A stretch of DNA of 64,000 nucleotides, taken from NCBI GenBank assembly GCA_025357875.1, contig JANYLK010000218.1:1-64000 (forward strand). Reading direction: 5' to 3'. The notes beneath the pieces were generated by a model, which saw only the letters and a list, made by a program, of their open reading frames with translations, had not been told where the DNA came from and ran no database searches. Positions 44,978 to 52,181 of this stretch are shown in pieces (the stretch's first letter is position 1; the number at the start of each line of letters is the position of its first letter). The position numbers and the translations under genes were made by a program. The stretch is from Granulicella sp. (GTDB taxonomy: Bacteria; Acidobacteriota; Terriglobia; Terriglobales; Acidobacteriaceae).

Positions 44978-45955
44978 TTACTGCAGCAGGCTCTCTTCAC
45001 TGGAACGCAGCCGCAGAATGCGGTCGACGGCGTACGGAGCGCGATGTGTCGGCGTGTGGAAATGCCGTACCTGCAATTCGCCCAACAGCCCAATCCCCAG
45101 CATCTGGATTCCCGCGATAATGAGCACTCCGGCAATCACAAACATGGGTCCATGAGCTACCAGTACGGGCTGGCCCGTGAATATTTTGAGCGCTAACAAC
45201 CACATCGCCAACCCGCCGCCGCTCAGCATACCCAGCGCGCCAATCGACCCGAAGAAGTGCAGTGGCCGAGTCATGTATTTCAGCAGGAAGCGGATTGTGA
45301 CTAAATCGAAGAAGACCCGAAACGTACGCGACAACCCATAGTGGCTCTGTCCATACTGGCGTCGCGGATTTGAAATCGGAATCTCGCAGATGCTCGCGCC
45401 ATACCAACTAGCCAGCGCAGGAATGAACCGGTGCATCTCGCCGTAAAGCGGAATGTTATGGATTACCTCGCGCCGGTACGCCTTAAAAGTTGTCCCAAAA
45501 TCGTGAATGTCGACGCCGGAAATCCGCGCCATGAGCCAGTTCGCGCAGCGCGAAGGAATGCGCCGGAACAGCAAATTGTCTTCACGATGAGAGCGCCATC
45601 CACTGACCACGTCGTAACCTTCTTCAAGTCGCGCAAGGAAGTTTGGAATTTCCTCCGGATCGTGCTGCAGATCCCCATCCATTGAGATCAGCAACTCGCC
45701 CTGCGCATGATCGAAACCGGCAGCCAGCGCCGAAGTCTGACCGAAGTTGCGTCGCAGCTTGACCACCAGCACGCGGCTATCGACAGCCGCAATCTCCTCC
45801 AGCAACCGATAAGTGCGGTCGCGCGACCCGTCGTCCACAAACACCATCTCGAAGGAGTCGCCCACCTGCTCCATCACCAGCTTTACCCGGTCGTAAAGAG
45901 TGGTGACGTTCTCCTCCTCGTTGTGAAACGGCACGACGATGGAGTACTTCGGCAC
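44978..45955 (-). CDS. GT2 glycosyltransferase with C-terminal membrane helices
   Basis: A polyprenyl-phosphate sugar transferase-like protein, 325 residues. The GT-A fold shows YSIVVPFHNEEENV, VFVDDGSRDRT and SMDGDLQHDPEEI (DxD metal motif). The QxxRRxY-like region is KLRRNFGQTSAL in this class. Two C-terminal helices (about 235-260 and 270-293) place it at the inner membrane, as in DPM1/ArnC-type enzymes. Sugar and lipid specificity not readable. Confidence 0.92.
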   Translation of the reverse strand: MPKYSIVVPFHNEEENVTTLYDRVKLVMEQVGDSFEMVFVDDGSRDRTYRLLEEIAAVDSRVLVVKLRRNFGQTSALAAGFDHAQGELLISMDGDLQHDPEEIPNFLARLEEGYDVVSGWRSHREDNLLFRRIPSRCANWLMARISGVDIHDFGTTFKAYRREVIHNIPLYGEMHRFIPALASWYGASICEIPISNPRRQYGQSHYGLSRTFRVFFDLVTIRFLLKYMTRPLHFFGSIGALGMLSGGGLAMWLLALKIFTGQPVLVAHGPMFVIAGVLIIAGIQMLGIGLLGELQVRHFHTPTHRAPYAVDRILRLRSSEESLLQ

Positions 45956-50503: not shown

Positions 50504-50670
50504 TTACAACCACCCTTTACGCGCCCACGGACCCGCATCCCCTAGCTTATTCCGCAACGCATAGAATCGGCGAGCAAAACTGCGGTTCCAGCCTCTCAAA
50601 CCCCCAAAATTGTCCCCAGTTGCGCACTCATCCACATTTCGCTGCGTCCGCGTGCAGCCCACCCATCTGG

Positions 50671-50810
50671 TTGCCATTTCGGAGCGCCGCAGATACCGCG
50701 CTCTGTTTTGTCATTCCGCAGCTCAGCCGATTCCGCACCCTGCTTTGTCACGCAGCCAACCAGATTCCGCACTCTTTGTCATTCCGCAGCGCAGCGGAGG
50801 AATCCGCTTC
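50671..50810. repeat. Degenerate tandem array of the GTCATTCCGCAGCG repeat
   Basis: Four units with start positions near 50671, 50707, 50744 and 50775. The best unit reads TTTGTCATTCCGCAGCGCAG followed by CGGAGGAATCCGC; the others keep TTTGTCA and ATTCCGCA but diverge between. The spacing is 31-37 bases. Spacer 50504-50976 holds no gene that can be supported. Confidence 0.65.
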
Positions 50811-50976: not shown

Positions 50977-51306
50977 CTACGGATTCGACTTCAGCCGTTT
51001 GTAGCTCGAGTTCGGAACAGCATAAAAATGACCGTGATAGCTGTGTACCTCATCTAGCTCGAGCGCCTCGCTGTCATCCACTGACTTATCGACAGTTCCG
51101 TCTTCCTCGCCGCGAGGAATCAGATCGACCGCCTGGGTATCTCGTACTTCACGATCAGGCGCATTTACATCGTCTCGAAAAAACAGTTGATGCGTAGCGA
51201 CCACGCCGGCCAGTGTCTTGATCTCAGATCCGGTAAGAAATGGTTTGTCGGTTTCATGGCGATTGCCGCCGACAAAGAAGTGGTACGTCTTCACTTGCGT
51301 CTGCAT
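50977..51306 (-). CDS. Single-domain multiubiquitin-like protein (orphan)
   Basis: A 109-residue protein. Residues 5-63 match the bacterial multiubiquitin pattern: KTYHFFVGGNRHETDKPFLTG (beta-hairpin), SEIKTLAGV (helix), THQLFFRDD, APDREVRDTQAVDL. A C-terminal HFYAVPNSSY stretch resembles the closing motif of such domains. This is a ubiquitin-like beta-grasp fold as I recognise it; proof needs structural comparison. The middle (64-90) is acidic. It has no adjacent E1, E2 or JAB-type gene. The start ATG 51306 has GAGGTG at good spacing; the frame stays open further 5' but that part lies in repeats. Confidence 0.75.
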   Translation of the reverse strand: MQTQVKTYHFFVGGNRHETDKPFLTGSEIKTLAGVVATHQLFFRDDVNAPDREVRDTQAVDLIPRGEEDGTVDKSVDDSEALELDEVHSYHGHFYAVPNSSYKRLKSNP

Positions 51307-51440
51307 TGGAAACACCTCAATGGCCGTCCATACTACGCCGCGAGCGAGAGCAGAGCCTGTGAGACGCGTCACACCTGCTAGCCAGCGCCACACCCGGCTT
51401 GCCAGCGTCACCACCGAACTTGCTCGGCAGTACCACAAAG

Positions 51441-51545
51441 TGCTGAAGGCCCGGCATATAACAGCCTGGGACGGAGGCCGGGGTGACCAATCGAAAGAGA
51501 GTCCGAGGCTGAAAGCCCGACATATCACCTCCGCCGGCGCAAGCG
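51441..51545. repeat. Two copies of a GCTGAA-GCCCG-CATAT repeat
   Basis: TGCTGAAGGCCCGGCATATAAC (22 bases, shown here as TGCTGAAGGCCCGG then CATATAAC) at 51441-51462 and a 22-base relative at 51507-51528, GGCTGAAAGCCCG then ACATATCAC. They lie 66 bases apart in the 51307-51794 spacer, which carries no further gene. Confidence 0.55.
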
Positions 51546-51794
51546 CCTCCAATCACAAAATCCTGTCAACCCCCGAAATCTGTTGACAACTCGCCAAATC
51601 ACTCAATCCACAGCAGATAATTCCTGAAAATACTTGGCTTAACAGTTATGGTCGATTCCGTAAAGTTTAGATGAGAATTAAATCTATGAGCCCGGCCATT
51701 GTGCCGGGCATCTGCATTTAATGTTTGACCCACGCAGCACCTGCTGTAACTCACATGTTTTGAATTCTTTGCCAGAAACAAAGAGGGGGTAGCC

Positions 51795-52181
51795 ATGATG
51801 TCCGACACAGTCCAAACAGTCCCAAGCCGAGCCCGTAGTCGCTTCCAGCGCCGTCATGTTCGAGCCTCAGGCCGGCCCTGCGGAGTAGCCGCCCTGCGCG
51901 GCCAGTTCTTCTGCTGCCACCAAATCGCCGCCCGCCGCCCCATCCTGCCCCGCACCGCTCCCGCTTCTACGAGGCCAGCCTACAGGCATTCGGCCAGCCC
52001 CAGAGCCCGAACCGCTGATTCCCGTATTCCACAAGAGTCACGGCATCGTCGCCCCAATCGCCGAATTCCGCGAGGTCAAAAAGCCGAACGTCCACTCCAG
52101 CGTTCAGGCTGCAATCGCGACGAGGACAAATCCCTGCACGTCTCATCGCCAGGACAGTCAATTATGCAATTTGCCGCGTAA
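51795..52181 (+). pseudogene. Probable decayed small gene with a Cys-finger-like N-terminus
   Basis: The frame opens with a strong AGAGGGGGT ribosome site and encodes a Cys block RASGRPCGVAALRGQFFCCHQ of a type seen in small acidobacterial proteins (recognised from memory). After residue about 48 the composition becomes Arg/Ser/Pro-rich and unlike a folded protein. In the two other frames short stretches look gene-like: SRFYEASLQAFGQP, and EFREVKKPNVHSSVQAA further on. This suggests frameshifts in the second half. It may still be an intact unknown gene. Confidence 0.4.

Follow-up and report, generated by a model that had tools for sequence, protein, structure and literature searches.

The ubiquitin-like protein (Ubl) systems known so far in bacteria are operon-encoded conjugation pathways. 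The passages of Iyer et al. (2006; PMC1779556) on the '6e' operon describe a multi-beta-grasp Ubl, an E2-like RWD protein without the catalytic Cys, a JAB+E1 protein, and a protein with a C-x3-C...H-x2-C motif, and they give one to three repeats for the Ubl. In our reading, the last of these proteins is DUF6527, by its motif, and the 6e operon is today's Bub. According to the part of PMC11354881 dealing with BilA, this protein is a two-domain Ubl whose C-terminal Gly is exposed by BilC. The sections of PMC13373217 that name these systems state that Bil and type II CBASS act in phage defence, whereas Bub operons are so far without such a demonstration. Among the titles and abstract openings searched, no orphan or Gly-less Multi_ubiq protein was found, and the literature search yielded no papers on DUF6527.

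The locus described here lies in a stretch of 64,000 nucleotides (the window) from a draft Granulicella genome (G000; 4.56 Mb in 229 contigs, 97.5% complete). An earlier note on this DNA had pointed to a single-domain, multiubiquitin-like protein without conjugation genes beside it, which would be either a lone modifier working with enzymes encoded elsewhere or a Ubl used as a binding module.

A free-standing Multi_ubiq gene and its predicted fold

The gene encodes 109 amino acids on the minus strand, from an ATG at 51306 to a TAG stop codon at 50979-50977, while translation of 50977-51306 on the plus strand runs into stops. The extent and length given in the earlier note were thus right, with minus as the coding strand. 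The strong ribosome site that it had claimed is also present, as GAGGTG lies just upstream of the ATG inside GCCATnGAGGTnTT, and GCCATnGAGGTnTT recurs in the leader of the relative described below. The leader (51307-51330, minus strand), with GCCATTGAGGTGTTTCCA just 5' of the ATG, is partly common to both genes. Although the open frame reaches further upstream, to a TTG at 51552, the ATG at 51306 is preferred as the start because of its good ribosome site and the shared GCCATnGAGGTnTT surroundings. A promoter candidate was rejected, as the single sigma-70-like site found is on the opposite strand.

PF14452 (Multi_ubiq) was the sole Pfam family matched by the protein, at 29.9 bits (E 6.5e-7) against a gathering cut-off of 24.5 bits. 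The match covers residues 8-63 (51118-51285, minus strand) and profile positions 1-57 of 69, that is, the beta-grasp core without its last strand. The relative, in genome G021, also exceeds the cut-off, at 26.9 bits. No family was matched in NCBIfam at E up to 1 or in PADLOC at E up to 10, and no second Multi_ubiq match over the cut-off was found in G000. A structural model predicted from the two-row alignment has a mean pLDDT of 64.7 and a pTM of 0.55, with 55 of 109 residues at pLDDT 70-90 and values below 50 at residues 66-90 and 103-109. In a Foldseek search of the PDB with this model, the first eight matches are multi-ubiquitin chains (E 4.3e-5 to 7.5e-4), followed by 9ea8, BubA in complex with BubCD, at E 0.09. 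Structure comparison by VIA gave 9d59 at Z 11.1 (2.0 A over 74 residues), 9ea8 at Z 9.2 and the following row at 7.3, and a sequence profile search matched 9cd2 at E 0.002. The protein is therefore predicted, with moderate model confidence, to adopt the beta-grasp fold of Multi_ubiq type. Both the Multi_ubiq assignment and the beta-grasp pattern proposed in the earlier note are borne out, the latter at the level of a predicted model that matches multi-ubiquitin and BubA at Z 9.2-11.1; neither of the two outcomes that it had named as refuting, no ubiquitin-like HMM match and no beta-grasp fold, was found.

Occurrence and purifying selection

A protein search of 100 genomes, G000 included, gave matches in three: G000 itself, the same-genus metagenome-assembled genome G021 (a draft, 88% complete), at 62% identity, and G078, of the same class, at 34% identity over residues 5-62. 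The other 58 of 59 same-genus genomes are without a match. In the species genome collection, a pattern-based scan gave 76 candidate stretches, of which one was confirmed as a relative, in the Acidobacteriaceae metagenome-assembled genome L006, which is counted with contig C27 of G021 as one record. With the two-row profile, matches were found in 3 of 397 genomes of the order and 3 of 398 of the family, the same three in each case: G000, G021 and G522. The G522 protein, the only match in the family sample besides the two orphans, is an operon-borne cousin, thus two orphans are known. Eleven plasmid records carry relatives at 40-47% identity over 52-56% of the query. The orphan core is 35% identical to the Ubls of G382 and G078 and up to 47% identical, over 57 residues, to one plasmid Ubl. 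Phage records contained no match to the window protein, nor did viral contigs when searched with it or with the G382 Ubl, and a phage or viral origin was rejected on these grounds. In a tree of 14 Ubls, the two orphans and 12 operon-borne proteins, the orphans branch together (96/99) and are set off by a long stem, inside a group of eleven (100/99) where their exact place is unsettled.

Across 104 aligned codons, 113 nucleotide differences separate the two orphan genes, but 64 of these codons specify the same residue, whereas random placement of the same substitutions leaves 39.2 same-residue codons on average and 50 at most (2000 trials). The final 19 codons contain 14 nucleotide differences, with 12 codons differing synonymously and 18 residues unchanged, and random placement never kept more than 16 (5000 trials). 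Over residues 99-109, the amino acids are the same in the relative bar one S/T exchange, while the codons have changed synonymously. The NG86 method gave dN 0.29 and dS ~1.7 for the first 62 aligned codons, dS being saturated over the whole gene. Since fewer residues have changed than under random placement and dN is below dS, it is concluded from these codon comparisons that the pair is under purifying selection, that the gene works in each of the two species, and that its most constrained parts include the tail; with two members known, a single comparison underlies what is said of selection and of the conserved tail. A chance open reading frame was rejected, given the PF14452 match and the excess of same-residue codons over random placement.

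Genomic context and conjugation enzymes

The window gene sits between a DUF1800 gene and a cyclophilin gene, and its surroundings include two cyclophilins, malate dehydrogenase and a three-copy repeat at 50670-50798, in agreement with the neighbours (DUF1800, repeats and cyclophilins) first reported for it. The relative in L006 sits between pfkA and secG, and the two loci have no flanking gene type in common. Conservation of the locus in related genomes, a check that the earlier note had proposed, gave a negative answer: the stretch fetched around DUF1800 from 14 same-genus regions contains neither a Ubl nor a cyclophilin, thus the window locus is not conserved. A common insertion site was considered and rejected, as these 14 regions are without the Ubl but show other large frames upstream of DUF1800 (in 13 listed regions by simple ORF calling) and no clean empty site. 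Since same-genus relatives have these other frames, the long interval that separates the Ubl from the first cyclophilin (51307-52170) may be a rearrangement point. The repeat consists of three imperfect copies of a 24-nt unit (TTTGTCATTCCGCAGC-like). L006 contains three similar CATTCCG(C/T)AGCG words, one of them just downstream of its orphan Ubl, and a perfect 17-nt inverted repeat between that Ubl and secG (L006, 5579-5621) is possibly a terminator. No mobile-element gene was seen adjoining either orphan.

Other PF14452 loci differ from these two in the company that the Ubl keeps. The family is over its cut-off in 18 of 396 genomes of a phylum sample, G000 included, and 18 loci from the other 17 genomes, together with those of G078 and G522, made up 20 comparison loci. 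With E1 queries taken from seven of them, recognised as ThiF-type by Pfam or NCBIfam (weakly for L034), tblastn found an E1-like match within ~1.2 kb of the Ubl in all 20, the weakest at E 4.6e-16. The same search found no E1-like gene in 33 kb around the window orphan (from window position 45000 to 14 kb beyond the window end) or in 11.4 kb at the L006 orphan, and the genome-wide search gave no ThiF match on contig C11. The orphan state claimed for the window gene thus holds for its relative as well.

The earlier note had also suggested a search for E1, E2 and DUF6527 genes elsewhere in the genome, and its outcome is divided. ThiF proteins over the cut-off are present (three in G000 and two in G021), as are two JAB proteins in G000, whereas Prok-E2_E, DUF6527 over the cut-off and an evident cognate JAB-E1 were not found in G000 or G021. 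Prok-E2_E gave no match in either genome at E up to 1, and DUF6527 scored at best 15.8 bits or less against a cut-off of 23.6, while both were detected in all five genomes chosen as positive controls for them. Prok-E2_B was over its cut-off in none of five genomes, and a crude DUF6527 motif scan was set aside, as it missed loci where Pfam finds this family. Since both orphan genomes are drafts, and that of G021 is 88% complete, an enzyme not found in either may still be encoded there. Contigs C95 of G000 and C49 of G021 each pair a ThiF with a JAB gene, and C90 of G000 and C24 of G021 encode a MoeB/ThiF-like protein with matching gene neighbourhoods; the ThiF genes common to both genomes, including the ThiF-JAB pair, look like a housekeeping set. 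Elsewhere in G000, a fragment on contig C84 (L071, 27-5342) encodes a CBASS-like E1-E2 protein cut at the contig start, a Cap3-like JAB protein, DACNG, DACNH and a phage-type integrase. In PADLOC, its E1-E2 matches PDLC00836 at 354 bits and its JAB matches PDLC00891 at 204 bits, and the fragment is likely a defence island.

C-terminal tail and acid-rich insertion

The alignment comprised both orphans and the 12 operon-borne Ubls of highest similarity to them, namely L070 (G522), L044 (G382), L045 (G078), L037 (G442), L039 (G431), L041 (G344) and six plasmid Ubls. The other 14 of the 20 fetched loci (L027-L036, L038, L040, L042 and L043) were left out, as their Ubls differ in the tail, have more than one domain or are fused to an E2. 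All 12 Ubls possess a Gly five or six residues past a conserved Pro, in tails of the form PPATFG, PKANFG, PPASFG or ...INPG, and three of them stop exactly at this Gly. In contrast, both orphans read PN(S/T)SYKRLKSNP from this Pro, retaining the aromatic residue and having no tail Gly; in the window protein, these are residues 99-109 (NSSYKRLKSNP, codons at 50980-51012, minus strand) after Pro98. A Lys occupies the Gly position of nine of the 12 Ubls, and seven residues, counted from this Lys, complete the chain.

Among the loci left out, L027, L028, L033 and L034, which have another type of E1, have T-x-x-S ends whose last eight residues are free of Gly. L042, whose neighbour matches the 6e-type E1, ends in AADDNS, likewise without Gly. 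The other tails are TGQS or TGES (L031, L036 and L043), TEG (L030), RGMSS (L035) and GGSS (L038 and L040), while L029 and L032 continue into an E2-like region. The multi-ubiquitin of E. coli ZDHYS365 ends in TDKS. Since PF14452 proteins without a tail Gly thus exist elsewhere, its loss alone leaves conjugation possible, and the case of L042 indicates that a tail Gly is not strictly defining for a 6e-type Ubl. A second Multi_ubiq group with T-x-x-S tails can be recognized in the phylum (L027, L028, L031, L033, L034, L036 and L043). Its neighbouring E1 best matches that of L034, which is PRK06153-like, and the last domain of L028 aligns with the last domain of the E. coli ZDHYS365 protein at E 3e-13.

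Between aligned P64 and the last strand (HFYAVP), the two orphans carry insertions of 28 and 23 residues, compared with a few residues in the 12 Ubls. The insertion is acid-rich, with 10 and 7 Asp/Glu, and variable in sequence between the two; in the window protein, it occupies residues 65-92 (51031-51114, minus strand), most of which have the low pLDDT values given above. The unusual insertion that the earlier note had placed between AVDL and HFYAVP is therefore a feature of both orphans and of none of the 12 operon-borne Ubls compared. The single domain was rejected as an odd feature, as 11 of the 12 Ubls, a set chosen for similarity to a single-domain query, are of single-domain length, and the passages of PMC1779556 on the 6e Ubl allow for one repeat. 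What is unusual in the orphan Ubl is its tail, its insertion and its orphan state, while a single domain is normal in the family. In our view, the Gly-less tail, about which the earlier note says nothing, is the most telling feature.

Possible function

The explanation put forward here, tentatively and at close to an even chance, is that the protein is a domesticated Ubl that has left conjugation, descends from a 6e operon, and acts by non-covalent binding. The Ubl of an operon encoding Multi_ubiq, Prok-E2_E/RWD, JAB-ThiF E1, a kinase-like protein and DUF6527 would have lost its partner enzymes and its Gly-containing C-terminus, becoming free-standing, and would have acquired a flexible, acid-rich loop together with a basic tail that is conserved (YKRLKSNP). 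Its beta-grasp surface and fixed basic tail would then bind a partner, which may be one of the host's own proteins or a conjugation or phage component that enters the cell. In the end, the orphan Ubl probably works by binding and not by attachment to other proteins. Of the two roles first suggested for it, a binding module would fit better than a lone modifier, which is weakened by the enzymes not found in either draft genome and by the lack of a tail Gly.

A lone modifier would depend for its activation and attachment on enzymes from other loci, for example housekeeping MoeB/ThiF-like E1s or the CBASS-like E1-E2/JAB of C84. Candidates for such enzymes exist in G000, in the form of its ThiF and JAB proteins and the C84 fragment with its PADLOC matches, and some operon-borne Multi_ubiq proteins also manage without a tail Gly. 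However, the C84 E1 has no counterpart among the ThiF matches of G021 (88% complete), which has kept the Ubl, the other two ThiF genes resemble housekeeping genes in both genomes, and the closest operon-borne Ubls all have the Gly that the orphans lack, making this reading unlikely. It has also to be weighed whether a chromosomal, Gly-less Ubl could occupy the E1, RWD/E2 or DUF6527 of incoming mobile 6e systems and so block them. The retention of the core but not of the Gly tail is what a dominant-negative protein would show, 6e operons are found on plasmids (six records), and the distribution is sporadic (matches in 3 of 398 genomes of the family, one with a full operon). Such interference is nonetheless quite unlikely: no 6e operon was found in G000 or G021, neither orphan has a mobile-element gene beside it, and the core has diverged to the identities given above, which makes binding of the orphan to 6e enzymes uncertain.

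Just as improbable as this interference is an adaptor or regulator of a housekeeping process such as proteolysis or secretion, in which the basic tail would be the recognized signal. The chromosomal location, the housekeeping neighbours in both species and the conserved tail suit such a role, but the gene types around the two orphans are all different, and the protein search left 58 of the 59 further same-genus genomes without a match. The sparse distribution and the lack of operon neighbours would equally be expected of a decaying remnant of a lost operon, without present function. This is very improbable, as both species have intact frames with a strong synonymous excess, a fixed tail and a conserved ribosome site, and the random-placement test largely refutes it.

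In eukaryotes, some Ubl domains serve for binding only. A bacterial Ubl that selection retains in the absence of operon enzymes and of the usual tail would point to a similar reuse of the fold, outside conjugation, in bacteria. A bolder and rather unlikely extension of the domesticated-binder explanation is that the orphans represent a new class of bacterial Ubl, permanently outside conjugation, Gly-less, free-standing and selected as non-covalent binders, possibly as chromosomal decoys that jam the conjugation systems of mobile elements. The orphan Ubl offers a small testable protein in the search for chromosomal regulators or antagonists of 6e/Bub systems.

Comparison with known systems

The orphan Ubl resembles BilA in being a bacterial Ubl of beta-grasp type, but its tail is Gly-less. 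With a single domain, no E1 in its flanks and no PADLOC family, it does not group with Bil systems, in which a two-domain BilA has BilB, BilC and BilD beside it. The best structural matches to its predicted model are BubA and multi-ubiquitin structures (9d59, 9d5a, 9d5b, 8u38, 9cd2 and 9ea8). However, these entries are multi-ubiquitin by title and have 212-261 residues or are fragments, whereas the orphan has 109 amino acids, and 9ea8 contains BubA with BubCD, a partner that the orphan does not have beside it.

The nearest operon type encodes a Ubl, Prok-E2_E, JAB-ThiF, a kinase-like protein (APH/TCAD9) and DUF6527. It matches the 6e operon as outlined in the relevant passages of Iyer et al. 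(2006; PMC1779556). Operons of this kind also occur on rhizobial and Deinococcus plasmids; in the six plasmid loci opened, ThiF and DUF6527 genes are annotated downstream of the Ubl in all six and E2/UBC in four. On a Bradyrhizobium plasmid from peanut nodules (CP092842.1; L068, 1-9078), a 6e-like operon lies ~4 kb from an annotated CBASS cGAMP-activated phospholipase gene. The 6e Ubl and the orphan have in common the PF14452 domain, the beta-grasp fold (predicted for the orphan), and a core of TG-E/D/Q-IK followed by an HFYAVP-like end, whereas the orphan differs in being without operon partners and tail Gly and in carrying the acid-rich insertion. The same holds against its operon-borne cousin in another genus of the same family (G522, contig C54; L070, 8080-8661, minus strand), which possesses a similar core and HFYAVP end but ends in HFYAVPPATFGR and is followed by Prok-E2_E, JAB/ThiF, kinase-like and DUF6527-like genes, the last two recognized by sequence and motif and not by HMM.
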